Shown here: one piece after another, positions 1,148 to 59,205 of the stretch | Layout: every line of letters starts with the position of its first letter | How positions within the stretch are numbered: the first letter of the stretch is position 1 | Assembly: GCA_017464805.1 (NCBI GenBank) | Contig: JAFTYE010000008.1 | Span: forward strand, 62,001 to 126,000 | Origin: Clostridia bacterium | GTDB lineage: Bacteria > Bacillota > Clostridia > Oscillospirales > CAG-272 | Length of the DNA: 64,000 nt | Reading direction: 5' to 3' | Position numbers and translations under genes: made by a program | The notes under the pieces: generated by a model | Database searches by the model: none | What the model saw: the letters and a program-made list of their open reading frames with translations, nothing else | Told to the model about the DNA's origin: nothing

Positions 1148-1428
1148 CAAAAAAACCCTTCGCTCCAATCATCCCAATTTGGATTTTTTGATTCCACAAG
1201 CCAATTCTTTTTGGAGCGTACCCAACGCTTTAACTGTTTTTCCCGCGCTATTGCATCGTTAACCTCGGAATATTCCTCAAAGTAGACGAGCTTGTGAACG
1301 TGATACTTTTTTGTAAAGCCTTCTATTTGCTCATTTTTGTGTTCGTATAATCGTCTGCGCAAATCGTTCGTTACGCCGATATACATTACCGTATCGGTTT
1401 TGTTGGTAAGTATGTAAACGTAATACAT
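1147..1428 (-). CDS. Small GIY-YIG nuclease-domain protein
   Basis: A 93-residue protein made of a single GIY-YIG domain (YYVYIL near the N-terminus, then YIGVTNDLRRRLYEHK with the conserved Gly and Arg residues). It belongs to the UvrC-like endonuclease/UPF0213 group, whose cellular role is unclear. The reading frame stays open upstream to 1473, but that part lies in the repeat cluster; AAAAGGAG at 1433-1440 fixes the start at 1428. Its stop codon abuts the methyltransferase remnant, and its 5' side abuts dispersed repeats, which suggests a small acquired gene. Confidence 0.8.
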   Translation of the reverse strand: MYYVYILTNKTDTVMYIGVTNDLRRRLYEHKNEQIEGFTKKYHVHKLVYFEEYSEVNDAIAREKQLKRWVRSKKNWLVESKNPNWDDWSEGFF

Positions 1429-1439
1429 TAATCTCCTTT

Positions 1440-1740
1440 TCGCCCGAGATCCTGCTTTCGCGTTGCTCGGCACTTTTTCGTCCGTGTCATCCTGAGCGTA
1501 GTCGAAATCCGAGCATCGCGAGGATCAAACGGTGCGTAGCATCGTTTGGGATCTCGGACGAAAAAGATAGATTCCTACCGCCCGAGATCCTGCTCGGTTA
1601 CACCTCGCACTGCTTCGCAGTTCGACTCGCTTCGCTCGCTCAGGATGACACACGGGCGAGGCTGTGTTTAGTGTCATCCTGAGCGGAGGGCGTAGCCCGT
1701 AGCCGAACCCGTAGGGCGATGCGAAGCATCGGGATCTACC
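1440..1740. repeat. Cluster of dispersed imperfect repeats
   Basis: This gene-free stretch is packed with related short words. TGTCATCCTGAGCG occurs on the plus strand near 1484 and 1672 and in inverse orientation (GCTCAGGATGACA) near 1639-1651. CGAGATCCTGCT is present near 1443 and 1582, with inverse forms (GGGATCTCGG, GGGATCTACC) near 1549 and 1730. Blocks such as GCGTAGCATCG/GCGAAGCATCG also recur. The pattern is that of dispersed palindromic intergenic repeats known from gut anaerobes. No convincing gene or promoter was found within it. Confidence 0.7.
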
Positions 1741-1743
1741 TCG

Positions 1744-1983
1744 TTAATGGAATGAAACCTCGACTATATCCTCCAATTCTTGCAGGGATTTTCCGTCAAA
1801 GAATTTGTCATGGATAAGCTCGTCAACATTGGTATATTTTTTGCTTTTATTCCCACACCAACTTTCAAAAGATGGTATGGAATTGTGGACTTCTACTTCC
1901 ACGCCACACGGTAGGCCGTTAAAAGTAAAATGTATATCCCAAAATTCGACGAGCAAAGCTTCTCTTAAATCTATACTGCTCAT
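1744..1983 (-). CDS. Small protein of unknown function
   Basis: A 79-residue acidic protein that I do not recognise. It has no signal peptide or membrane segment. It is rich in aromatic and acidic residues, with a central WCGN motif and a C-terminal helix-like DGKSLQELEDIV stretch. AAAGG lies 10 bases before the ATG. Its start is only 13 bases downstream of the stop of the 289-residue gene, so the two are probably co-transcribed. Base composition is clearly more AT-rich than in the flanking housekeeping genes, suggesting transfer. Confidence 0.6.
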   Translation of the reverse strand: MSSIDLREALLVEFWDIHFTFNGLPCGVEVEVHNSIPSFESWCGNKSKKYTNVDELIHDKFFDGKSLQELEDIVEVSFH

Positions 1984-1996
1984 AACAGAGGTACCT

Positions 1997-2866
1997 TTAA
2001 AACTCTATTTCGAAAAGCAAACTGTCGTTAAGCTCTTTTGTAGCTTGTTTTTCCATTGAAACTTTCCCGCCTATGCCCAAAACATCATCAACGGCACAGG
2101 CAATCGACCGCGACATAGATGCACAAGAAGAGCCGTTCAACTCTAAAACCGTGGATTTAATTGCTTTATTGCAACGCATTTCTATCAAATTTTTTACATT
2201 TTCGTCATAAGCAAACCACTTTAACTGAGGAGCCTTAGGCTCATCATGTCCCTCAAAATACGAAATCCTTTTTCCACTTTTCTTGTTGGCGACAGACTTT
2301 TGGGATCCCGTTTCCGTAGATTTCATCACTTGCATCTTATTGGAATCGGTTTGCTTTTCTGCCTGAAATATTTCTACAGAACAACTTTTTGCCCCCAAAC
2401 AATATGCGATATTATTTAATTCAGCTAATTTTTCTTCGGTTGCTTTCCCAAAAACTTGATTTGAATTGATGTATTTTTTAGAATTGAAATTATCCTGACA
2501 ATATACGTTGTCCCTTTGCGGCACAGGTATAAAAACAAGTCCGCATTTTTCTACAAACGAGGAATAAATGTGAAAAGCAGGAACTTCCTTATGTAGCTCT
2601 ATCCAACCCATAGCCTCAGCATCCTCAATGAATTCGCGGTTAGCTGAGTCATCTTCTATTTTTATGATGCTTGGAATTTTGAAATCCTCCTTTTCAAAAT
2701 CCGACAAGGTAACAACCGTATATTTCTTCGCCTTCTTTTCGTGAATATTCTCTTTCGTTTGATCTACAATCTTTTTCGTTTCCTCGGCAGCTTTCTTTCC
2801 AAAATCCCCCATCTTTTTCCATACGTTTGAAAAAGATTGCTTCGTTTTTTCTTGATTTTTATCCAT
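1997..2866 (-). CDS. Unknown 289-residue protein with N-terminal helix
   Basis: Not recognised. Residues 1-50 form a charged, Lys/Glu-rich amphipathic segment (KKAAEETKKIVDQTKENIHE) likely to be a coiled coil. A mixed alpha/beta region follows, with a Cys-containing CLGAKSCSVEI strand near the middle. A polar, Lys-rich linker leads to a C-terminal domain ending LGIGGKVSMEKQ...LLFEIEF. There is no signal peptide or membrane span. The frame is open to 2932, but AAGGAGA with a 6-base spacer supports the ATG at 2866. Composition is AT-rich compared with the neighbours. It forms a two-gene unit with the 79-residue gene. Confidence 0.65.
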   Translation of the reverse strand: MDKNQEKTKQSFSNVWKKMGDFGKKAAEETKKIVDQTKENIHEKKAKKYTVVTLSDFEKEDFKIPSIIKIEDDSANREFIEDAEAMGWIELHKEVPAFHIYSSFVEKCGLVFIPVPQRDNVYCQDNFNSKKYINSNQVFGKATEEKLAELNNIAYCLGAKSCSVEIFQAEKQTDSNKMQVMKSTETGSQKSVANKKSGKRISYFEGHDEPKAPQLKWFAYDENVKNLIEMRCNKAIKSTVLELNGSSCASMSRSIACAVDDVLGIGGKVSMEKQATKELNDSLLFEIEF

Positions 2867-44426: not shown

Positions 44427-45242
44427 TCAGGAAAGCAGGGCACGGTCGCTTGCGAATTCCTCGCCCGACACGCGGGAGAACATAGCAAGCAGAGTCTCGA
44501 CGGTGAGGTTTTTCTTTTCCTCGCCTGCGATATCCAAAATGACCTTGCCATCCTTGAGCATGATCAGGCGATTGCCGTGCTCGATGGCATCACGCATGTT
44601 GTGCGTGACCATCAGGGTGGTAAGCCCAGCCTCGGCGACGATCTCTTCGGTGATCTCCAGCACCTTGGCGGCGGTCTTGGGGTCAAGAGCCGCGGTATGC
44701 TCGTCGAGGAGTAGCATCTTGGGCTGCACAAGAGTCGCCATCAGCAGGGTCAGTGCCTGACGCTGACCCCCCGAGAGCAGGCCGACCTTGGAGCTCATGC
44801 GCTCCTCAAGGCCCAGCCCCAGGCGGGCAAGTTCCTTGGCGTAGAGCTCTCGTTCCTTGGCGGAAATTTCCCAGCGCAGGCCGTGCCGCTTATCGCGGCG
44901 GTAGGCAAGCGAGAGATTTTCGGCGATCTCCATATTCGGGGCGGTACCCATCATCGGATCCTGAAACACGCGGCCGAAGTAACGCGCGCGGCGATGCTCG
45001 GGCAGGAACGTGATGTCCTTGCCGTCCAGAATGATCTCGCCCTCGTCTAGTGGGAAAACGCCGGTCAAGGCATTCATGAGCGTGCTTTTACCCGCGCCGT
45101 TACCACCGATGACGGTGATAAAATCACCGCGGTTGATGGTCAAGGATAGGTTGTCCAGCGCGCGCTTTTCATTGATCGTACCACCGTGAAAGATCTTGGT
45201 GATACCGCGGATCTCCAGCATGGGGGTGTTCTTTTCTTCCAT
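44427..45242 (-). CDS. ABC transporter ATP-binding protein (TrpZ-like)
   Basis: A 271-residue ATPase with GGNGAGKSTLMNAL (Walker A), LLSGGQRQALTLLMA (signature), LLLDEHTAALD (Walker B) and MVTHNMRDA (switch His). It energises uptake through the permease encoded just upstream. The start at 45242 lies one base beyond the permease stop, with its GGGGGG ribosome binding site inside the permease gene. It is the third gene of a binding protein-permease-ATPase operon. Confidence 0.92.
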   Translation of the reverse strand: MEEKNTPMLEIRGITKIFHGGTINEKRALDNLSLTINRGDFITVIGGNGAGKSTLMNALTGVFPLDEGEIILDGKDITFLPEHRRARYFGRVFQDPMMGTAPNMEIAENLSLAYRRDKRHGLRWEISAKERELYAKELARLGLGLEERMSSKVGLLSGGQRQALTLLMATLVQPKMLLLDEHTAALDPKTAAKVLEITEEIVAEAGLTTLMVTHNMRDAIEHGNRLIMLKDGKVILDIAGEEKKNLTVETLLAMFSRVSGEEFASDRALLS

Positions 45243-45243
45243 A

Positions 45244-46164
45244 TCACGCACCCCCCTTCTTGTGGCTACCACGGTGCTTGATGGCTTTTTTTGCGCTGTC
45301 CAAAATGGCGGAAAGGCCGAGTGCCACCGTGATCACAAGCGCGGTGAGCAGCTTGAGATTGTCGGGAGACATGATGTTGGCATCGATGATGACCGTCACG
45401 ATCACGCGGTAGATCACCGCGCCGATCGCCACACCGAACAGACGCAGCACGAATCCGCGGGCACGCTTGAAGATGGTTTCGCCGATAATGATGGAGGCAA
45501 GCGCGATGACGATCGCGCCGACACCCATGGTAGAGTTTGCGGAGGATTGATACTGACAGAGCATGCTGCCGCCCACGGCCACCAGGCCATTGGAGAGCGC
45601 AAGCCCAAGGATCTTGGCATTGTCGGTATTGACCCCCTGTGCACGGCACATTTTTTCATTATCACCCGTCGCACGGACGGTACAGCCGAGCTCGGTCCCG
45701 AGGAACCAGTACAGAGCGTATACCACCAAAATGACCAGCAGAACGCCGATTATCAGGGCGGAATAGCGGCGGCCGATCTCGAGCAGGCCGTTGACCTGAT
45801 CGTACAGCGTGTTATGTTTGCCGATATTAATGTTCGGGCTCTGCATGATCATCAGATTCACGGAAAAGAGGGCAGTCATGGTCAGAATGCCCGCAAGGAT
45901 CGGCGGGATCTTCAGCTTGGTGTGCAAAAGACCCGTCACGATACCGACAATACAACCCGCGAAGAAAGCACAGATCACCGAGAGAGCAGGGGGAACACCT
46001 CCCGCGATGAGCACGCCGGAAACCGCCGCGCCGCAGGTGAAGCAGCCCTCACAGGACAGATCGGCAAAATCCAGAAGGCGGAAGGAAATGAATACCCCCA
46101 ACGCCACAAAGGCCCAGATCAATCCCTGGCAAGCACCCGTAAGAAGCGTATCGAAAGACAACAT
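45244..46164 (-). CDS. ABC transporter permease (TrpY-like)
   Basis: A 306-residue membrane permease with eight or nine hydrophobic segments, related to branched-chain amino acid/LivH-type permeases. The family landmarks ALGVFISFRLLDFADLSCEG and the ATPase-contact loop ATGDNEKMCRAQGVNTD (EAA-like) are both in the usual order. It lies 21 bases after the binding-protein gene. In contrast to its binding protein, it shows no rearrangement. Confidence 0.9.
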   Translation of the reverse strand: MLSFDTLLTGACQGLIWAFVALGVFISFRLLDFADLSCEGCFTCGAAVSGVLIAGGVPPALSVICAFFAGCIVGIVTGLLHTKLKIPPILAGILTMTALFSVNLMIMQSPNINIGKHNTLYDQVNGLLEIGRRYSALIIGVLLVILVVYALYWFLGTELGCTVRATGDNEKMCRAQGVNTDNAKILGLALSNGLVAVGGSMLCQYQSSANSTMGVGAIVIALASIIIGETIFKRARGFVLRLFGVAIGAVIYRVIVTVIIDANIMSPDNLKLLTALVITVALGLSAILDSAKKAIKHRGSHKKGGA

Positions 46165-46185: not shown

Positions 46186-47220
46186 TTAGCCCTTGTTGAC
46201 CGTGTGGATGTTGGCGGCACCGTTTGCCAGAGCATTGTCGGTGGGAACATAAACGAGGTCAACGCCTGCATTCTTCAAGGCAACGAAGGCGGATTCGAGG
46301 TCGTTGATATCGCTGATGCCGCGAACCTCGTAGGTGTAGCCGAGATCCTCGCAGGCGGCCTTACCGAGGTCTACCTGGAAGATAGAGTTGGTCTCGCCGG
46401 AGGAATAGAGGAAGCCGATCTTCACATCGTCCTTGCCGAGCAGCTCACCTGCCAGCTCGATCTGCTTGGCAACGGGGTTGATGTCCGACACGCCGGAGAC
46501 ATTGGCACCGGGGGCATCCATGCTGGCAACCAGGCCCTCACCGACAGGGTTGGTAACGGCGCAGAAGAGGACGGGGATCTTGTTCTCGCGGGTTGCGTTG
46601 GCGGCAGCCACGGAGGAGGAGGTAGCGATGGTGTAAATAAGGTCAACGTTCTGGTTGACGAAGGTCTCGGCGATGGTGATGTTGTTGGAATCCTCACCGC
46701 TTGCGTTGCGGTCAAGAACCTGAACAGTCTTGCCTGCCGCCTTCATACGGACGGAAAGCTGATCCTGGAAGCCTTTGTTGGACTGGTCGAGAGCCACGTG
46801 CTGTACCAGCTGCAGGATGCCGACAGTGAAGTCTGCACCGCTCTCCACGATGGCGTCGGTACGGGTCACCTGGGGGGCGGCACCACCCTCTGCACGGTCA
46901 AGGATGGCTTGCGGGATAGTAAAGCCGATCTCCTCGGCCAGCTCGGGGTTTACGTACAGGGAGGGATTGGGGTCGGTCTGTACGGGCATGGTGGAAACGT
47001 TTGCGCCGTCCAGCAGGATATCGGCGGCCATATCGCCTGCCTTGACACCCAGGCTGTAGTAGTCAACGCCGTAGGTAGCGACGCCGCACTGCTCGGTCAT
47101 GCCGGTCTCGCCGCACACAACGGGAACAGGGCCGGTGCTGCCGCCGCAGGCAGTCATGGTGACGGGGACAGCGAGGCACACCAGTGCCAATACGATGGAG
47201 AGAATTTTCTTTGCGTTCAT
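46186..47220 (-). CDS. ABC solute-binding lipoprotein (TrpX-like), circularly permuted
   Basis: A 344-residue lipoprotein (lipobox MTAC, Cys at about 25). In TrpX/ABC_sub_bind proteins the mature chain begins with a strand like FTVGILQLVQHVALD and ends with VPVVCGE...GVATYGVDYYSLG...IP. Here the order is swapped: PVPVVCGETGM...GFTIPQAIL occupies about residues 31-105, a linker (GGAAPQVTRTDAIVESGA) follows, and DFTVGILQLV through VPTDNALANGAANIHTVNKG runs to the stop. The break falls in one loop of the C-terminal lobe. AAGGAG precedes the ATG. Likely ligand: an aromatic amino acid, judging from the T-box. Confidence 0.85.
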   Translation of the reverse strand: MNAKKILSIVLALVCLAVPVTMTACGGSTGPVPVVCGETGMTEQCGVATYGVDYYSLGVKAGDMAADILLDGANVSTMPVQTDPNPSLYVNPELAEEIGFTIPQAILDRAEGGAAPQVTRTDAIVESGADFTVGILQLVQHVALDQSNKGFQDQLSVRMKAAGKTVQVLDRNASGEDSNNITIAETFVNQNVDLIYTIATSSSVAAANATRENKIPVLFCAVTNPVGEGLVASMDAPGANVSGVSDINPVAKQIELAGELLGKDDVKIGFLYSSGETNSIFQVDLGKAACEDLGYTYEVRGISDINDLESAFVALKNAGVDLVYVPTDNALANGAANIHTVNKG

Positions 47221-47262: not shown

Positions 47263-47518
47263 AAAAAAATGCCCCCATACCCAACAGGTACAGAGACGAG
47301 CAAGCCGTGATACCACTCTGCTTCACCGTTTTTTTGCAAAAACGGCCTCACGAACGCCAATCAGCGTCCCCGCGATATAACGGTCGCACCCGGCAAGACC
47401 TACTTTGGTTCAGCCCGCAGCTCCCAAAACGAATTTCACCCGACGCCACCTCTGCCTTGCACCGACCGGCATTTCTCTGCACGCGCTTTTCGGGGTACTC
47501 CCTTTCTGATCATCGCCT
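47263..47518 (-). ncRNA. T-box riboswitch, phenylalanine (UUC) specifier
   Basis: The leader of the ABC transporter operon. On the minus strand, stem I begins with AGTACCCCGA, has the distal loop GGTCGGTGCAAGGC, and returns through TCGGGTGAAA-TTC-GTTTTGGGAGC, which aligns with the GAA-N-specifier layout of known T-boxes; the specifier UUC is at 47431-47433. A CCGTTTTTGCAAAAAAACGG stem III follows. The T-box AGAGTGGTATCACGG is at 47305-47319, with UGGU pairing to an A73 tRNA. The terminator (GTCTCTGTACC / GGTATGGGGGC) ends in ATTTTTTTG. Start of transcription is expected near 47520. Confidence 0.82.
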
Positions 47519-47526
47519 ATGCTAAA

Positions 47527-47555
47527 ATAATAGCACCGTTTCGCCGTTTTGTCAA
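47527..47555 (-). promoter_or_regulatory. Promoter for the T-box/ABC transporter operon
   Basis: Minus strand TTGACA (47550-47555), 17-base spacer, TATTAT (47527-47532). A second TTGACA lies 12 bases further upstream. Confidence 0.85.
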
Positions 47556-49698: not shown

Positions 49699-52600
49699 AT
49701 GAAAAAGAGAATCTTATCCTTCATTCTTGCACTCTCTACGATCCTTCTGGCGATCCCTGCCACGGTATTCCCCGTTATGGCGGCAGAATCGGCGGAATCT
49801 GACCCAATCGTTCTCTCCTCCACAATCTTTGCCCCCAATCAGGAGGGCACCTGGCCGATCTTTGACGAATACGACACGACGGCCATGAACACAAACGACT
49901 ACGTAGGCGTGACCTACCGGGGCGGCTGGCAGATCGGCTACAAGCACGCGAGTGGAAACTCCTCGAACTTCACCCCATACGAAAAGCTGATCAAGGCGAC
50001 AGGCAAGCTCGGTGAGGACGGAGAGATGATCCTGACCGCAGACACCGGCTACTGGACGCAGTGGGGCGGCCTGTACATAAAAAGTACCGCCAGTGCCAAC
50101 CTGATGTTCTCCGGCGTGGATCTGGATGAGGCGACCGGCTACCTCGAGGCAAACGTGGCTGCCAACGCGACCGTCCGCTACACCGCAAAGGAAACGGGTA
50201 CGATCCGCGTGAAGGTAAACGAGCTGTACTTCTACTCGGACAGCGCGACCTACTTTGCCGTGTACCACAACGGCGTGCGCGTACATGACCCGATCATGGC
50301 GGTCAATGCCAAAAGCCAGATCGTGAACGGCGCGTTCGTATCGAAGACCGCCTCCAACAACGCGTCCCTGTTCACGACCGTGACGCTGGATGTGCAGAAG
50401 GGCGACTCGATTGACTTTGTGTCCCACGCGAATCCCGATTTCAACGCCTCCAATCTGGAGGAGCTCGGGCTGACCCAGTTTACAAAAACGGAGTACGTGA
50501 GATCCAAGCGCGGTCTTTCGGATTACGAGTTCCAGATCGATTACATTGCGGAAAAGACCTCCTACTCCACCCGTTTCTCTCCCGACGAAGAGAGCACCTT
50601 CCCCGTATTCGAGGGATACAGTGTCGCCGCGATGGAGAATGGTGATTCCGTAGGCGTCACCTATCCCGGCGCATGGCAGATCGGCTACCGCGATCCGAAC
50701 GGCGAGACGGCGAACTTCACCGCCTACGACAAGCTCTACAAGGTGAACTCCTCGGGACAGATGATTCTGTCCGCGGGCTCGTCCTACTGGTCTGACTACG
50801 GCGGCGTATACATCACGGGCGTGCCTACCCTAATGTTCTCGGGCATGAGCTACACAGACGACTATACCTCCGTCACCTCGCACAATGCCGACCCCGTGAT
50901 CCGCTACACGGCGGAATATACGGGTATGGCTCTTATTCGTCTTAACGAGCTGTATTTTTATGCAAACAACGCGGCCTACTTGGAAATTCTGCACAACGGC
51001 GTACCGCTGACCGATCCATATCTGTCAACGGATGCGCAGTACCGCGTACAAGACGGTGCCTACACCTCCGCGGGTGCGGCCAACAAGGGTGCGGATCTCG
51101 GCACGCTGGTACTTGAACTCACCGAGGGTGACACCATTGATTTCGTATCCCGTGCAAACGACGATTTCAATGCCTCGAACATCGAATCCCTCGGCTTGAC
51201 CAAATTCGACGGAACCGAATACGATTACGCCAAGCGCGGCATGCTCGACTTTGATTTCGAGATCGTTTATCGTTCCGAAAAGGATGGCGGCAAGGCGGAG
51301 AATTTTGCCGGCACGACAGACACCACGCTGCCCGAACCGCTGTTTGTATGGTACGATGCAAGCGGTACCATGCTGGAGGACAGCGACATCCGTGAGGCAG
51401 CGGGAAATTTTCCCGACACCTCGGGAAGCACGGACATTGTTTTCTCCTCCCTCGTCTCTCTGTTTGACTGGCTTTATCGGACGGGCGGCAGCTATGCCGA
51501 GATCAATCCCACACTGATCGCAAACGGTACAATCTCCGAGACCGATAACTACGCAAACATTCTTGCAAAATACAAGACGTATCTCGCCTCCTTCACCTCA
51601 CTCTCCTTCCCGAGTGGTTGGAAAGCAGGCGTAAGAGCCGGAAGCAGCTTCACGGCATTTGACCGTCTGTGCTTCTTCTCGGACAGTAACCTCTTTGCCG
51701 TCGGGCAAGCGGGCGGCATCGCCTCTGCCTTGGTCGATTACAGCTATAACGGCAATCTCTTTGTGACGAGTGCACAGTTTACCGCTGCCCTCGATGCTTT
51801 CATTGCCAACGCCGCATCCATCACCCCGAGCGGCACGGCCGCCTCGGATCTGCGTCTCGAATATGACGGGATTCCCGAGGGGATGACGCTTCCGACGCAG
51901 GGCACCGACCCGCTGGCAGCGGTCGGCGCGGCCATGAAGCACCAAGGCGGCAACCTCTTCCTATGTCCGAGCGCAAACGGCGGCATCGCCTCCTACGCTT
52001 ATACGGTTCCGAGCGGCTATGATCGTCCGATCCTGTCGCTTACGGCCAATGCCGTCCGCTTTGACGGGGATGCAAGTGCCTTCCACTACGCCATCGCCGT
52101 GAACGGCGAGGTCGTGTGGCCCGTCGGTGCGACGATGTCCTCCGCGATGGCCGATCACGATTCCATGACCGGTTGGCAGCTTTGCACCTCTGCAGAAGAT
52201 CTCACAAGCACCCTCGCCTCTCTGCATTTCGAGGTAGAGAGCGGTGACGTTGTGGAGCTCTGCGTGGCGCGCGCCTATGAGGGCGGCGCGGAGATCGGAG
52301 ACGTATGCGTAGGTATGGATCTGACCGCCACCACCGACAACTATCACGATGTAAATGTGCTGGATATCATCCGTTCGGGTAAGTACCTACACCGTGGTGT
52401 GTACGAATTCGGCAGCACCGTGACGCTTGCCGACCTCAATCTTCCCGACACCTTCGGTGCGAACGGTGTGTACATCAACAACACCTCCTTATCCGAGGAG
52501 CTACCCACCTCGCTCACCATGTATCGCAACTACCGCATCACCGACATGGTGCTGCAAAGCTCCGCTTCGGTTTCAATCACCTCTGCCTTTGCCGTAAATA

Positions 52601-55600
52601 TTTACGTGCAGGCGCAGAGCAGTGCAACTGCCGCCGGTGTGGTGATCGATGGGGAGAAGGTTCCCGGCGTTTTGCAGGGCAATAACGTATACAAGTGCAC
52701 CCTGCCCGTTGTTCCCAAGGATCTGCCTGCCATGGAGGTCTCCTACAAGGCATACCAGACTGTGGACGGCAAGGATACCGTCAACGCCGACCCGATCACC
52801 CTGTCCGCCTTTGACCTGCTTGCATTGTATGAGGCAAGCGAGGACGAAACGACCGCCCTGCTCGCCAAGACCGTTCGTTATTACAGCCTGGCGGCACGCG
52901 ACTACTTCATCAACCAGAAGGTAACACTTTCGGACGACGTGAAGAACGCCCTGCGCGGCAGAGCAGATGCTTCTGCGGTCGGTACGAATGACACCGCCAT
53001 CCTGACAATGGTCGATGCGTATAAGGCAGGCACGGCTTATCAACCGTATCCCGATGGCACAGACGTAAGTGCCTTTGATTTCAAATTCAACGGTATCACG
53101 CTGAAGCTGGATAACACCCTTGGCTTCCTCTTCCGTACCAAGCGCACGGACGACACTCTGTTCGGCGAGCCCAGCCTGCGCCTGCGCGTCACGGATGCAA
53201 ACGATAATGTTCGCTACTACGCGGATCCCGCTTCTCTCTTTGATGAGGAAGGCAAGGAAATGCTCTACTTCGTGGGCAACCTTCCCGCTGCGGAATACGC
53301 AAGCGAGTTCTATTTCACGCTGGTGGACGGCAACGGCACGGCACAAAGTGCTACGCTGACCTATAGTGCCTACGCTTACATCGCCCGTACTTTCAACACC
53401 GCAAGCGGTGACGACAGTGCCCTGCATTATCTACTTCGCGGCATTTATGCACTCGGCGAGGCAACCTCCGCGTATCTGGAGGTACACTCCCTCAGTTATG
53501 ACGCGAACTACACGTTTGACATCGGCGACGGCGGTGACGCCCTGGTTTCGAACGACCCCGTTCTGAAGGAGGTCACCTACGATCCCTCCACCGCTACCGT
53601 TCTTTCCGCAAATGAATTCTTTAACACTGCACTGGAAAGTGGCAGCGTGTACAAGGTTAGCGACAACACCCTGACCCTGACCGACGCAGACGGCGGCAGC
53701 TACAACGCAAACGGTGCAATCCTCATCGCCTCGGGTGGTCTGATCATTGACGGCTGTCAGGACGTGACCGTATCCGACTTGGTCGTGGTCGGTCCCGTCA
53801 TCATTCGCAATTCGAGCAACGTGATTCTGGAAAACTGCCAAATCCTGGCCCCCACCCAAACGAGTGTATCGGTAGAGGCAACGGCAGAGAGCATCGTGCT
53901 CAACGCCTGCCGCATGATCGGTACGACCGCCGTGGCGAACGCCGCAGACGAGCTGACGGTCATGAACTCCTACCTCGGCTTCTCCGGGGACGGTGTGCGG
54001 GATACCGCATCGAACGGTACGACCGTACAGAACTGCCGCCTGGTCGGCACGGGCAGCGGCTCTGCCATCTACTCCACCGCTTCGGAATCCGCCTTCCGTT
54101 TTAATACCATCCTGCAGAAGCGCGTCACCTCCTCCGGCATCGTGCTGAAGGGAGACGGCAGTACGCTGAATGTGCTGGTTGCGCAGAACGTAATCTCCGG
54201 CACACGCAGCTCCATGAGCATCAGCGGCCTTCTCAACGCATCGGTCGTTCTGAATAGTGCCGTAACGATCGAAGCGAGCGACAATAAGAATCTTTACCTC
54301 TGTGACAACGCCATCGGCGGCAGACTGGTGCTGACAAGCAACAACTACCTGCTGGCAGACGGCAACCGATTCCCCGACGACACGATGGATCACACCACCG
54401 TGTCCACGGATAACCAAAATACCAACGGCGACAGTCTTATGGACGTGAACGCCCGTGTGGATGTTGGTGCGAACGAGGATCTGCTCCCGCACGTGGATAA
54501 GGATCTGTTCCTCGGCATGGAGCGCAAGGAAGCAGTCAAGGATGTCACCTCCGCTACCAAGCTGGATGTCTACAAGTACATCACTACCAACTCGCTGGCA
54601 AGCAACAGCCACTACATCGTGGTAGCACCCGGTGCTTATCTGCTGAAGGACAGCGACTACAACAGCAAGAACGGTCTGGAGCTCACGACCTCCGGCAGCA
54701 ACGGCGACCGCATTTACGCCTACGGTGTCTATGCGGAGCATGAATCCGGGCTCTATCGTCACATCACCCTCTCCGATGTAGAGGATGTGACCATCAAGGG
54801 ACTTTCCATCGGCTACGCCGCACAGTCGGTCGGCCAGGTACAGATCCTGGAAAAGATCGACAACACGCACTTCCTGGCCGTAGCCCCTGCCGGCATGACG
54901 GCTGACCTTTTCGTGAATTCCACCAGCTCGACTTATCTGCACCGCACCGGCCGTGGCGAGGAATACATCTTCTGTGACCTCACAGGCTTCAGTGCTGTGG
55001 ACAACGGTGACGGAACGGTCACCGTAACGGCATCGGCAACCTATGCAGAGCTACTCTCCGTAGGTGACACCCTCACCTGCCGCGCTACCGGCAAACAGAC
55101 CGTAACCACTTCCCGCTGCGCGGATATCCTGTACCAGGATATGACCGTGTTCGGCAACTCCGGCGGTCTTTGCTTCGTGGAAAGCGATAATACGGGCTAC
55201 GTTACCTATCATCGCATTCTGGACACCAACCGCAACGGCAGAGTCATCGATCAGGCAACCTACGATGCCTACGAGGCTCTGGAAGCCGAGTATGGCGTGG
55301 ACCTTGACATCCACGTGGATGAGGCAGGCCGCCTGCGCGGTGCCAAGCAGCTGGTTGGCTCGGTAGACGCTACCCACGTCATCTCCTGCGCTTACGGCTC
55401 GCAGATCATCTCCTGTATCTTCGAGAACATGTGCGACGATGGCACCAACCAGAAGTCCACCCACGGCCGTCTAGCTTCGGTGACCGACAACGGTGACGGC
55501 ACGACCACCCTTGTATACAAGAGCTCCATTTCCATGCGCAACGTGGCCGCAAACTACACCTCCACCGGCATCTGCCCCGACTTTGAGATCGGCGACCGCG

Positions 55601-58600
55601 TATTCATCTACACAGCGGCAGGGCAGCGTGTATGCGACACGCCGGCACTTTCCGCAACGGTAGAGATCGACTCCTACAAGTCTACGTATCGAGATGTGGA
55701 GCGCACCATCGTCAGAAAGTCCGTTACGGTCAAGACCGATGACGTGAACTTCGACGCTCTTACGGGCTACGACCTCACCATCGACACGGCAGAGGATGAG
55801 CACAAGGTACTAATCGACAACCGCACAAGAACCTCGAACAGCTTCCGCATTGAGAACACCGTGATTGACGGAACCCGCTCGCGCGGACTTCTCATCAAGT
55901 CCTCGAACGGCGTGATCCGCAACTGTACGCTCCGCAACATTGCCAAGGTCGGTATCGCGGTGCTGTACGAGATCTACTGGGGCGAATCGGGCGTTTCCGA
56001 GAACATTCTCATTGAGAACAACCTCTTCGATAACGTCAGCTATAATCCTCATTCCAAGGAAACGGATAACTACCAGCACTACCCGATCTACATCGCGGGT
56101 CTGGGCGGCGGCACGCTGCAGGAAGACTACCTGTTGTACACGGACATCACCGTGCGCGGCAACGTGATCCGAAACCGTCATTCCGACCACGCGGTATACG
56201 TTCGTGCAGCCAAGAACCTTGCGTTCTACAACAACGATTTCGGCAATGCTCTGACCGAGACTGCCGACGACCCAAAGGCCACCTTCAAGTTCAACGGTGC
56301 CCTGAATGTCGAGCTTTCGGGCAACACCTACTCATCCTATCTGACCGACATTCAGCAGGCATATTACGGTCCTGCGTATGACAACATCTACGGTCTTGAC
56401 GTTTCCAAATACCCCTATCACGATGAGAACAATAATCTGTTCATTCGTTATCAGGATACCTACACCTTCCCCGTGGCGATCGAGGCGATCGAGAACGCGG
56501 CAATCACCAGTAAGGTGACCGGAACCGATACGATGGATGCCAATCTTCTGGTTCTCCAAGAGGATGGCAAGTCCGTCTATGCGGATGGCTGCGGTACCGC
56601 AACCATCCGTCTGGTGGACGGCCGCACGGTGAACATCACGATCGATCCTTCCGACATTTCCCTGTTCTTCGTAACGGGCCAGTCGAACGCATCGGCCGAC
56701 CACAGCTTCACCAAAGAGAACAATCCCGAGGAATACGAAAAATATCACGACACCTACGCGGACTACTTCATCCGTACCGCGCCTACCATGGCCTACTTCA
56801 CCTGGACGGGTCAGTCCCTGTCCCTGACAGGCACCTACAATCCCGAAAACTCCGTCACCGACACCCTTGACTGGGACAACATGGGTAGCCAGGCCTTCGT
56901 TGACCCGAAGGTGTTCAGCATTCCCGTGGGCTCGACCACGTTCGGTAATGCCGGTTGGAGTGCCGCGCTGGCCCATGAATGGGTCGAGCAAACGGGTGAG
57001 CGCGTCTGGATCGTCAATGCCTCGCACGGCGGTCACGGCATTGCGGAATTCGCACCCAGCGAGGATGGAACACCCGTGGATAACGACTACTATCAGGCGG
57101 TGGCGGTCTTCAACGAGGCTCTTGAAACGCTGTACGCTGAGGTCGATGCCGGCCACTTTACGCTCAACCACATGGCCTACTATTGGTTCCACGGCTGTGC
57201 AGACTATCAGCAGACCGAGGAATACTACACCGAGGGCTTTGCCAAGATGCACACTGCCATGCAGGCGGATGTGGTGTACAACCACGCCGGCGTTGAGAAG
57301 AAGCTGGAATACTGCGGCATCATGGACATCCGCTCCAAGCATGATAGCTCGGGCAACTCCTACGCTGAGAAATATCTGACGGGACCGCGTCTGTCCCACT
57401 ATCAGGCGGCAGGTGCCACGGACGGCGTGTTCGAAAACGTCTTTATCGCCTCCAACGTCACCCAGAGATGGCTTGGCGATGACCAGAATGTCGTGGACTA
57501 CTTCCTGGAGACCTACGGCTCCGTGGAGAACTTCAAGGCGATCTTCGGCTACGACATGCCTACCACCCGTTGGGAGCTACACCCGAACGTACACTACCTG
57601 ATGATGGGTCACAACGAAATGGGTATGGACTGCGCCCGCAACACCCTGCGCATCATCAACGCACTTGGCACGGGCAAGACCTACGTTCACGACTACGTGG
57701 ATAACTCGTCCATCAGCATCACGCTGGTCGGCCGCGACGGTCACACCCCCATCACCGATACCATCAAGCTGCAGGAGAACAACGGCAACACCTTACTCCT
57801 GCCTCTGATAACGCCCACCTGGCGCACCATGGACGGCGTTTCGCTGGTATCCGAAACCGCAGGCTTTACCTTCGTGGGCTATGAGCTGTACGCCACCGAC
57901 ACGACCAAGTCCCAGATCACCTTCTCGGTCTACGTAGGCGAAACGAATGTTCAAACCTACACCATGGCAATCGAGTGGGTATCTTCCTTCACGCAAAACG
58001 CACCGCTTTACACCTATGAGAACGGAAGCTACACACTGACCGGCATGCAGAGTCCCTGGTCGGTTGGTTATGTGAATCTTTCGGATAAGAGCTTTACGCC
58101 GTACAGTGCCATTTCCACGAGCGGTTGGATCGGCATCAACACGAACTCGCACAGTCAATACGGCTCCTTCACCGTTGGCTCCTGGAATGCCTCGATGCAG
58201 CCGAGCATGCTGGGCGCAGCCACGTTCTGTTACACGGCCACCAAGGATGGTAGCATTGCCATCTCTGCCGAGAAGTTCGATGCAGCGACCTATTCGGGCG
58301 GTGTGGGCACCTTCCTGGCTGTGATGGTCAACGGCAACATTGTCTGGCCGACGAGTGCCTCCTCCTATTCCCTACCCACCTCCACCGCCGACACGACCTG
58401 GCAGTATATGCCTGACTCCACCGACGGAACGGCAGAACTGAATGCCCTGTGGGCCGATGTTCGCCTAACGGTTAACAAAGATGATCTGGTACAATTCTGT
58501 CTGATCAGTGATACCGACCGTTCGATCACGGGCGGTGAGACCAAGACCAACTCCCAACCGATTCTGCACCCTGTCGTTACCTACGTGGAATCCTCTTCCT

Positions 58601-59205
58601 TCACGCACTTTACGCCCGTGGTCAACGAGGATAACACGGCCACGATGCGGGCACCCTGGTCAATGGGGTATCTATCCATCAGTAGCGGCAATTTCACCCC
58701 GTACACCAAGGTAGTGAACGGATGGCTGACCGCCAACGATTCCGCACACAGTACTTACGGCTCCTTCTGGACGAATGGGTGGAGGGCATCTATGCAGAGC
58801 AACATGGTCGCCGCCAACACCATCTGCTACACTGCCGAGAAAGCAGGCACGTTGAGCATCTCTGCTGAAAAATTTGACGCAGCGATCACTAGCGGTGCAG
58901 CGGGAACCTTCCTCGCTGTGATGGTCAACGGCGTGCGCGTTTGGCCGACAAGCGGAAGCGTACCCTACTCCCTGCCTACCACGACCACGAGCACGGATTG
59001 GCAGTTCATCACCGGTACCACCACCGATTCTACTGATGAGACAGCGACGCTGAATGCCCTGTGGGCAGATGTTCGTCTGACGGTCAATAAAAACGACCTG
59101 GTACAGTTCTGTCTGATCAGTGACACCGATCGTTCGATCACGGGTGGCTCGACCAAGACCAACAGCCAGCCGATCCTGCTTCCTGGCGTGACCTACGTGG
59201 ATTAA
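49699..59205 (+). CDS. Giant secreted multi-module protein: repeats, beta-helices, SASA esterase
   Basis: A 3,168-residue exported protein; signal peptide about 1-28. Modules: two similar N-terminal repeats (about 43-286 and 292-530) and a divergent third (about 641-881); a region like the 329-residue secreted protein (about 961-1268); a parallel beta-helix (about 1291-1575); a second beta-helix (about 1581-2318) with FENMCDDGTN at 1913-1917, resembling GH110 galactosidases; a SASA-type hydrolase (about 2318-2660; GQSN Ser2329, WFHGCAD, LHPNVHYLMMGH); an Ig-like linker; and two C-terminal repeats of about 200 residues. No sortase motif, dockerin or SLH domain was seen. AAGGAG seven bases before the ATG sets the start. 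Probably acts on acetylated glycans. Confidence 0.8.
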   Translation: MKKRILSFILALSTILLAIPATVFPVMAAESAESDPIVLSSTIFAPNQEGTWPIFDEYDTTAMNTNDYVGVTYRGGWQIGYKHASGNSSNFTPYEKLIKATGKLGEDGEMILTADTGYWTQWGGLYIKSTASANLMFSGVDLDEATGYLEANVAANATVRYTAKETGTIRVKVNELYFYSDSATYFAVYHNGVRVHDPIMAVNAKSQIVNGAFVSKTASNNASLFTTVTLDVQKGDSIDFVSHANPDFNASNLEELGLTQFTKTEYVRSKRGLSDYEFQIDYIAEKTSYSTRFSPDEESTFPVFEGYSVAAMENGDSVGVTYPGAWQIGYRDPNGETANFTAYDKLYKVNSSGQMILSAGSSYWSDYGGVYITGVPTLMFSGMSYTDDYTSVTSHNADPVIRYTAEYTGMALIRLNELYFYANNAAYLEILHNGVPLTDPYLSTDAQYRVQDGAYTSAGAANKGADLGTLVLELTEGDTIDFVSRANDDFNASNIESLGLTKFDGTEYDYAKRGMLDFDFEIVYRSEKDGGKAENFAGTTDTTLPEPLFVWYDASGTMLEDSDIREAAGNFPDTSGSTDIVFSSLVSLFDWLYRTGGSYAEINPTLIANGTISETDNYANILAKYKTYLASFTSLSFPSGWKAGVRAGSSFTAFDRLCFFSDSNLFAVGQAGGIASALVDYSYNGNLFVTSAQFTAALDAFIANAASITPSGTAASDLRLEYDGIPEGMTLPTQGTDPLAAVGAAMKHQGGNLFLCPSANGGIASYAYTVPSGYDRPILSLTANAVRFDGDASAFHYAIAVNGEVVWPVGATMSSAMADHDSMTGWQLCTSAEDLTSTLASLHFEVESGDVVELCVARAYEGGAEIGDVCVGMDLTATTDNYHDVNVLDIIRSGKYLHRGVYEFGSTVTLADLNLPDTFGANGVYINNTSLSEELPTSLTMYRNYRITDMVLQSSASVSITSAFAVNIYVQAQSSATAAGVVIDGEKVPGVLQGNNVYKCTLPVVPKDLPAMEVSYKAYQTVDGKDTVNADPITLSAFDLLALYEASEDETTALLAKTVRYYSLAARDYFINQKVTLSDDVKNALRGRADASAVGTNDTAILTMVDAYKAGTAYQPYPDGTDVSAFDFKFNGITLKLDNTLGFLFRTKRTDDTLFGEPSLRLRVTDANDNVRYYADPASLFDEEGKEMLYFVGNLPAAEYASEFYFTLVDGNGTAQSATLTYSAYAYIARTFNTASGDDSALHYLLRGIYALGEATSAYLEVHSLSYDANYTFDIGDGGDALVSNDPVLKEVTYDPSTATVLSANEFFNTALESGSVYKVSDNTLTLTDADGGSYNANGAILIASGGLIIDGCQDVTVSDLVVVGPVIIRNSSNVILENCQILAPTQTSVSVEATAESIVLNACRMIGTTAVANAADELTVMNSYLGFSGDGVRDTASNGTTVQNCRLVGTGSGSAIYSTASESAFRFNTILQKRVTSSGIVLKGDGSTLNVLVAQNVISGTRSSMSISGLLNASVVLNSAVTIEASDNKNLYLCDNAIGGRLVLTSNNYLLADGNRFPDDTMDHTTVSTDNQNTNGDSLMDVNARVDVGANEDLLPHVDKDLFLGMERKEAVKDVTSATKLDVYKYITTNSLASNSHYIVVAPGAYLLKDSDYNSKNGLELTTSGSNGDRIYAYGVYAEHESGLYRHITLSDVEDVTIKGLSIGYAAQSVGQVQILEKIDNTHFLAVAPAGMTADLFVNSTSSTYLHRTGRGEEYIFCDLTGFSAVDNGDGTVTVTASATYAELLSVGDTLTCRATGKQTVTTSRCADILYQDMTVFGNSGGLCFVESDNTGYVTYHRILDTNRNGRVIDQATYDAYEALEAEYGVDLDIHVDEAGRLRGAKQLVGSVDATHVISCAYGSQIISCIFENMCDDGTNQKSTHGRLASVTDNGDGTTTLVYKSSISMRNVAANYTSTGICPDFEIGDRVFIYTAAGQRVCDTPALSATVEIDSYKSTYRDVERTIVRKSVTVKTDDVNFDALTGYDLTIDTAEDEHKVLIDNRTRTSNSFRIENTVIDGTRSRGLLIKSSNGVIRNCTLRNIAKVGIAVLYEIYWGESGVSENILIENNLFDNVSYNPHSKETDNYQHYPIYIAGLGGGTLQEDYLLYTDITVRGNVIRNRHSDHAVYVRAAKNLAFYNNDFGNALTETADDPKATFKFNGALNVELSGNTYSSYLTDIQQAYYGPAYDNIYGLDVSKYPYHDENNNLFIRYQDTYTFPVAIEAIENAAITSKVTGTDTMDANLLVLQEDGKSVYADGCGTATIRLVDGRTVNITIDPSDISLFFVTGQSNASADHSFTKENNPEEYEKYHDTYADYFIRTAPTMAYFTWTGQSLSLTGTYNPENSVTDTLDWDNMGSQAFVDPKVFSIPVGSTTFGNAGWSAALAHEWVEQTGERVWIVNASHGGHGIAEFAPSEDGTPVDNDYYQAVAVFNEALETLYAEVDAGHFTLNHMAYYWFHGCADYQQTEEYYTEGFAKMHTAMQADVVYNHAGVEKKLEYCGIMDIRSKHDSSGNSYAEKYLTGPRLSHYQAAGATDGVFENVFIASNVTQRWLGDDQNVVDYFLETYGSVENFKAIFGYDMPTTRWELHPNVHYLMMGHNEMGMDCARNTLRIINALGTGKTYVHDYVDNSSISITLVGRDGHTPITDTIKLQENNGNTLLLPLITPTWRTMDGVSLVSETAGFTFVGYELYATDTTKSQITFSVYVGETNVQTYTMAIEWVSSFTQNAPLYTYENGSYTLTGMQSPWSVGYVNLSDKSFTPYSAISTSGWIGINTNSHSQYGSFTVGSWNASMQPSMLGAATFCYTATKDGSIAISAEKFDAATYSGGVGTFLAVMVNGNIVWPTSASSYSLPTSTADTTWQYMPDSTDGTAELNALWADVRLTVNKDDLVQFCLISDTDRSITGGETKTNSQPILHPVVTYVESSSFTHFTPVVNEDNTATMRAPWSMGYLSISSGNFTPYTKVVNGWLTANDSAHSTYGSFWTNGWRASMQSNMVAANTICYTAEKAGTLSISAEKFDAAITSGAAGTFLAVMVNGVRVWPTSGSVPYSLPTTTTSTDWQFITGTTTDSTDETATLNALWADVRLTVNKNDLVQFCLISDTDRSITGGSTKTNSQPILLPGVTYVD
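57985..59202 (+). repeat. Tandem repeat of about 600 bases in the giant gene
   Basis: Two successive units (about 57985-58590 and 58590-59202) encode the last two modules. They are most alike at their 3' ends, where 58447-58560 and 59053-59170 match closely at DNA level (both encode ALWADVRLTVNK and QFCLISDTDRSITGG). The high DNA identity points to recent duplication or gene conversion. Confidence 0.85.

Follow-up and report, generated by a model that had tools for sequence, protein, structure and literature searches.

A naturally circularly permuted TrpX-type solute-binding lipoprotein, preceded by a T-box with a phenylalanine codon, in a family of gut clostridia

The window (the whole stretch of DNA analyzed, 64,000 nucleotides from a Clostridia bacterium) carries a gene for a TrpX-type solute-binding protein (SBP), preceded by a promoter and a T-box leader and followed by the genes for a permease and an ABC ATPase. 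The features are listed below, beginning upstream.

47527..47555, minus strand: promoter TTGACA-17-TATTAT with an extended -10 (11/12 matches)
47289..47522, minus strand: T-box riboswitch leader (RF00230, 81 bits, E 5e-18, model positions 1-219 of 219)
47431..47433, minus strand: specifier of the T-box, the Phe codon UUC, which lies in the specifier loop and is separated from the preceding GAA by one base
47271..47297, minus strand: intrinsic terminator of the T-box (terminator search; hairpin also present in the predicted fold)
46186..47220, minus strand: permuted TrpX-type solute-binding lipoprotein gene, 344 aa, ATG start (Pfam, PDB alignments, rotation test)
47146..47220, minus strand: signal peptide (aa 1-24) and lipobox Cys (aa 25), read from the sequence
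46888..47136, minus strand: leading segment (aa 29-111), homologous to the C-terminal part of canonical proteins (structure-sequence alignments)
46828..46887, minus strand: linker (aa 112-131) between the former C-terminal helix and the former first strand (unaligned gap between the pieces)
46198..46827, minus strand: final segment (aa 132-341), homologous to the N-terminal part of canonical proteins (Pfam and PDB alignments)
45244..46164, minus strand: permease (BPD_transp_2, PF02653), a single gene (Pfam; conserved neighbour)
44427..45272, minus strand: ABC ATPase (PF00005; Pfam), whose start may be the ATG at 45242

The mature chain of the SBP runs in the order Cys 25, PVPVVCGETGM...GFTIPQAILDRAE, linker, DFTVGILQLVQHVALD...PTDNALANGAANIHTVNKG, stop, and the open reading frame 46186-47220 ends in ...NALANGAANIHTVNKG-stop. 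The lipobox reads MTAC, the ribosome site is AAAGGAG, and 21 bases separate the end of the gene from the start of the permease gene. Read directly from the sequence, the signal peptide, lipobox, ribosome site, stop codon and permease spacing are all intact, in agreement with the earlier note on this DNA. Elsewhere in the window (49699-59205, plus strand) lies a gene for a protein of very large size (about 3,170 aa, counted from a likely signal peptide) with apparent repeated modules.

The earlier note had claimed that the protein presents the C-terminal segment of its family first and the N-terminal segment after it, and had proposed that PF04392 (ABC_sub_bind) would match it twice in reversed order. 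PF04392 matched the window protein at E 1.8e-52 and 178.9 bits (cut-off 25.9) in two stretches. The best stretch aligned residues 133-339 with profile positions 2-204; the second piece, profile 212-290, was placed 5' of the first in a whole-genome profile search. A single match running colinearly from the N- to the C-terminus of the profile was not seen. The order was likewise reversed against all 3 distinct PDB sequences matched (6hni, 3lft and 3lkv), also when the comparison was made with profiles. For 6hni, query residues 132-335 corresponded to chain residues 25-224 and query residues 29-103 to chain residues 233-306. Across these relatives, residues 132-341 matched approximately the first 200 core residues and residues 29-111 the last 75-82. 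Almost nothing was lost at the cut, because in 3lft the first piece ended at residue 208 and the other started at residue 211.

Employing an HMM built from 77 canonical proteins, we scored the mature chain in 80 rotations. In its natural order it gave a best single stretch of 223.7 bits covering HMM positions 5-213 of 301, whereas rotation by 96-100 residues, within the linker, gave one stretch of 321.8 bits covering positions 5-297, the best of the 80; the worst scored 150.7 bits. The only NCBIfam model matched was that of TrpX (NF041285), at 230.8 bits in two stretches, below its cut-off of 390, a shortfall to which divergence may add. Homology thus puts the protein in PF04392, and colinearity and the TrpX equivalog cut-off put it outside. 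The locus is neither a pair of broken neighbouring genes nor a fusion of two SBPs, as there is one open reading frame with a single copy of each segment. No second trpX was found in the window's genome (a 91.7% complete draft), where both PF04392 matches were the two pieces of this gene. The window gene is thereby confirmed as a natural circular permutant within the TrpX/ABC_sub_bind family.

The same order was found in relatives. When species genomes were scanned with the window protein, 17 loci matched it over the full length or nearly so, with 62-69% identity in the best segment, and all 17 had the permuted order. With the loci from genome searches added, there were 20 distinct permuted proteins including that of the window, all with both junctions in common and all with a linker of 22-24 residues (by a measure slightly wider than aa 112-131). 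By their accessions and isolate names, the records seem to come from several assembly efforts: bins of the RGIG (ruminant gut) and SIG series, CASGAQ, an AS09 bin and JAGHTD. A misjoin during assembly, or a local rearrangement limited to a single genome bin, which the 17 contigs of the window's fragmented draft might suggest, is practically negligible as an explanation, because 20 distinct proteins, from separate records, share the order and the junctions. Of the three findings that would have refuted the earlier note (a misjoin, a second trpX gene in the draft genome and a colinear profile alignment), none was made.

The permuted form is confined to a narrow group in the genomes sampled. Among 69 genomes of the same genus, the PF04392 family was present in 25, and a two-piece reversed match in 5, the window's included. 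Among 395 genomes of the bacterial family, 15 gave a strong permuted match over nearly the full length, which in one case carried a frameshift. At the level of the order, 4 of 394 genomes were permuted, all of the same bacterial family and one being the window's own; at the level of the phylum, only the window's own genome was permuted among 398 (E up to 1e-45 in both samples). No permuted copy was found outside the bacterial family in these two samples. In total, 19 genomes in 10 genus groups held a permuted gene. When the 18 other than the window's were re-tested, reversed pieces were found in all 18, and the first-half piece ended at profile position 203-208 in 16. A canonical copy was absent in 12 of the 19 genomes, and one or two were present in 7 (drafts, 55-98% complete). 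The frameshifted copy belongs to a record named Candidatus Colimorpha enterica (L048, the same as L063 and G316), which NCBI places in Bacteroidales and which our genome search groups with the window's family.

The permuted gene might instead be a decaying paralogue, accidentally rearranged and no longer working, and that frameshift, together with the long stem of the SBP in the trees described below, could be cited for it. We compared the 12 most similar pairs among 17 permuted genes. Three pairs with dS < 1 showed dN of 0.078-0.113 and dS of 0.66-0.90, that is, dN/dS of approximately 0.09-0.13; most of the others were synonymously saturated, and one was not computable. The low dN/dS in close pairs indicates that selection keeps the permuted protein. 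The lipobox Cys was invariant in 17/17 aligned permuted proteins, as were many further positions. In the 12 genomes (drafts) without a canonical copy, the permuted gene was the only PF04392 gene found, and in the window both operon and regulation are intact. Decay is therefore a very improbable reading, and the view of the earlier note that this is a working gene gained support from the conservation of 20 distinct proteins and from purifying selection. It is a real and conserved permuted binding protein, and very probably a working one.

The upstream region was analyzed for regulatory elements. Promoter-like sites numbered 2 against 0.7 expected. The T-box of the window, although matched over the whole model and complete with specifier, antiterminator and terminator, lies below the Rfam gathering score of 93, and no match is listed here in a gathering-level search. 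The fold containing the terminator hairpin had a z of only -0.93, with 38 of 200 shuffles folding as well. In T-box structures, the specifier codon comes after the loop's GAA, with or without one more base between them. Read in this way, the window T-box carries UUC, a codon for phenylalanine.

Among 16 permuted loci scanned, 11 showed a T-box (E up to 0.001), 6 of them above the gathering score. A specifier was readable ahead of 15 of the 20 permuted genes: UUC (Phe) in 7 and UAC (Tyr) in 8, and UGG in none of the 15. The specifiers of L038, L042 and L039 were read by eye; L039 had been scanned as L052 without a match, and the other two were unscanned. In 4 of the 15 (L033, L047, L059 and L062) the GAA ahead of the specifier was altered and the codon was read by position. 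In the stretches examined, no readable T-box was found at L035, L041, L043, L046 or L048 (L035 by eye, the other four by scan). L041 and L043 have degenerate T-box-like leaders with an altered antiterminator core before the permuted gene, perhaps decaying T-boxes.

Canonical copies gave a different picture. Those in genomes that also hold a permuted gene had a T-box in 9/9 cases, with UGG (Trp) in 7 and UUC in 2 (L115 and L121). The two UUC copies mean that labour is not simply split between Trp for the canonical and Phe/Tyr for the permuted protein; for the same reason, simple replacement of canonical Phe/Tyr copies by the permuted gene was rejected. A T-box was found at 11 of 18 canonical loci scanned. 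Seven distinct canonical genes of other genomes carried UAC (5) or UUC (2), L089, L090 and L093 being left out, as they belong to the genomes with a permuted gene, and L004/L065 counted once. UUC, UAC and UGG, all aromatic codons, alone occupied the specifier place in the leaders read, which supports our reading of that place. Upstream of one canonical copy (L117, G120:C38) there are two divergent T-boxes, at 1316-1590 (minus strand) and 1753-2120 (plus strand), both with UGG.

The pocket was compared with that of CD0873 (6hni), in which the hydroxyl of tyrosine is reported to be held by Glu-263, and Tyr-279 to be an obstacle to Trp (PMC6816091). By alignment, the equivalents in the window protein are E38 and Y54, both in the first segment, and these positions were E and Y in 20/20 permuted proteins. 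The pair was rejected as a predictor of the ligand: canonical copies mostly carry it, including 5 of the 7 with UGG leaders, so that the signature does not fix the ligand. The ligand could be tryptophan, as for streptococcal TrpX, since the TrpX model NF041285 was the sole NCBIfam match. Such a ligand appears improbable, as UGG was present in 0/15 readable permuted leaders versus 7/9 canonical copies of the same genomes. Tyr at the Gln position of Trp-binding SP1069 also speaks against it, weakly, because all 60 canonical proteins have Tyr there too. From the specifier codons and the two pocket residues, the ligand is most likely phenylalanine and/or tyrosine, and the operon would encode a Phe/Tyr importer.

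The protein might bind an aromatic ligand and yet serve mainly for sensing or attachment rather than import. Precedents come from its canonical relative CD0873, also an adhesin (PMC6816091), and from TpMglB-2, a proposed chemoreceptor (PMC4990184). Against such a role, the permuted SBP gene was followed by the permease and then the ATPase gene in 16/16 loci long enough to tell (in the 17th, L048, the contig ends first), and T-boxes for Phe or Tyr tRNA stand ahead of most permuted genes. We consider this role unlikely.

We therefore favor, with a probability of roughly 0.85, the reading that the window gene encodes a permuted, lipid-anchored subunit of a Phe/Tyr importer, controlled by a Phe T-box, whose permutation had a single origin and was accompanied by a burst of change in the SBP. 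Transcription would start from the promoter at 47527-47555 and be attenuated by the T-box reading uncharged tRNA-Phe, so that uptake would rise as the amino acid runs short. The two-lobed, lipid-anchored SBP would catch an aromatic amino acid and pass it to the adjoining permease and ATPase.

By homology to 6hni, 3lft and 3lkv, the protein probably has a class I (cluster B) fold, which is marked by two alpha/beta lobes and three hinge crossings. The chain would begin at the strand that normally follows the PTDN helix of the C-terminal lobe and end at that helix; the old ends would be joined by the linker of about 20 residues, with fold and pocket as usual. The cut falls between ligand-contacting stretches, with the equivalents of Val-235/Pro-236 of CD0873 before it and that of Glu-263 after it (contacts from PMC6816091). 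Both proposals of the earlier note on this point, termini within a C-lobe loop and an anchor at a different place, are supported by the homology. In the alternating alpha/beta lobes of class I folds, a loop leading from a helix to the next strand faces away from the pocket. The new N-terminus, with its lipid, should thus lie at the C-terminal lobe's outer pole, whereas the canonical anchor would be at the corresponding pole of the N-terminal lobe. As there is a single permease gene, the channel is presumably homodimeric and two-fold symmetric, and docking would be equivalent after a half turn. Equivalent docking from either lobe may be the reason that the permutation was tolerated. A different tether length was rejected as a reason, there being no clear difference in the distance from Cys to core (7-14 in 20 permuted proteins; 4-32 in canonical ones, 48/60 of them within 5-9, by a loose lipobox pattern).

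Trees were constructed with 58 canonical rows and then with 44 canonical rows from the family plus 33 from other parts of the phylum. Only rows containing both segments, with at least 150 aligned residues of the larger one, were included; 14 near-duplicate canonical rows were dropped before the second tree, and the canonical sample came from the best 30 loci per genome search. In both trees, the 20 permuted proteins formed one clade among the canonical ones with 100/100 support. The second tree fixed no single group as the closest canonical sister. In it, three genera (g53, g56 and g47) each kept their members together, and the scatter of two others (g1 and g32) fits some exchange inside the bacterial family. 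No other order of segments was found: the 58 tree rows and 33 open reading frames from the phylum, with both segments detectable by BLAST, were all canonical. A single event, in an ancestor belonging to one family of gut clostridia, seems to have produced the permutation.

The stem of the permuted clade was compared between SBP and permease of 17 operons, with the same rows, well-filled columns and quick trees. The SBP stem measured 0.96-1.12 changes per site (two runs), approximately three times the permease stem of 0.31. The next longest SBP stem was 0.50 and the longest permease stem 0.37 (clades of 5-40 rows), and the stem was long in both SBP halves (0.95 and 0.91). The summed branches inside the permuted clade were 2.9 for the SBP and 4.5 for the permease. 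With a long SBP stem against a short permease stem, the burst of change was, by these quick trees, confined to the binding protein, which then settled; the permease did not share it. The window permease has a long end branch (0.82) within the permuted-operon clade, and the window SBP an unremarkable one (0.27).

For the origin, the earlier note had proposed tandem duplication and trimming. Adjacent tandem canonical TrpX-type genes were present in 7 of 10 regions (L079, L081 and L083-L087) and might be raw material for a permutation; these pairs are suggestive only, because the 10 regions had been picked as candidates. Open frames of 681-699 aa at two canonical genes were examined as fused duplicates and rejected: only the second half matches an SBP, and the rest reads as an upstream frame ahead of the start codon.

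Compared to known members of the TrpX family (3lft, SP1069; 3lkv, VC_1101; 6hni, CD0873), the window protein shares homology over both segments, the lipobox, the partner permease and ATPase, and the equivalents of two ligand-contacting residues. It differs in having its segments swapped (break at 3lft 208/211) and joined by a new linker, in Phe/Tyr specifiers ahead of the permuted genes instead of Trp, and in scoring under the NCBIfam cut-off. The trpXYZ operon of Streptococcus suis, a canonical system whose Trp T-box has been tested (PMC9382623), likewise carries such a leader.

Engineered circular permutants of periplasmic binding proteins show that such folds tolerate new termini; these were made in the laboratory and not naturally selected. 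In the open-licence PubMed Central literature, we found no permuted TrpX/ABC_sub_bind protein, and one case of a natural permutation of an ABC-transporter SBP, TpMglB-2 (Tp0684) of Treponema pallidum; in print, natural permutation of such proteins seems rare. Not covered by the earlier note are this published case from a different SBP family (PMC4990184), the T-box and its specifier for Phe/Tyr, and the single origin. According to PMC4990184, TpMglB-2 is also a permuted class I lipoprotein SBP with ligand binding preserved, for which the name 'Type Ic / Cluster Bc' was proposed, and 'Type Ic' SBPs were also reported from gut Gram-positives. As described there, TpMglB-2 belongs to a glucose family and has the first three strands of the N lobe at its C-terminus and a fourth hinge crossing, whereas the window protein belongs to the TrpX family, is broken in the C lobe and is led by the C-terminal quarter (3lft 211-291). 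By that description, the N-lobe break and the three strands at the C-terminus that define Type Ic are not seen in the window protein.

With a different family and a different breakpoint, the permutation described here is of the same kind as that of TpMglB-2 but independent of it. We advance only tentatively, and with more doubt than belief, the fuller account in which this independent event was followed by a burst of re-optimisation restricted to the SBP, was tolerated or even favored by a homodimeric permease, and led the permuted copy to take over Phe/Tyr uptake in many lineages.

The permuted clade represents a second, independent natural SBP permutation, with many living members. It has internal controls, namely canonical paralogues in some of the same genomes and the permease of the operon as a clock. 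With these, one can test whether import depends on which lobe bears the anchor, and follow the re-tuning of a protein whose chain has been cut and rejoined. Colinear family models split and under-score such proteins; in the rotation test, the order by itself cost about 98 bits. Selection can retain a binding protein that has been rewired and re-anchored.
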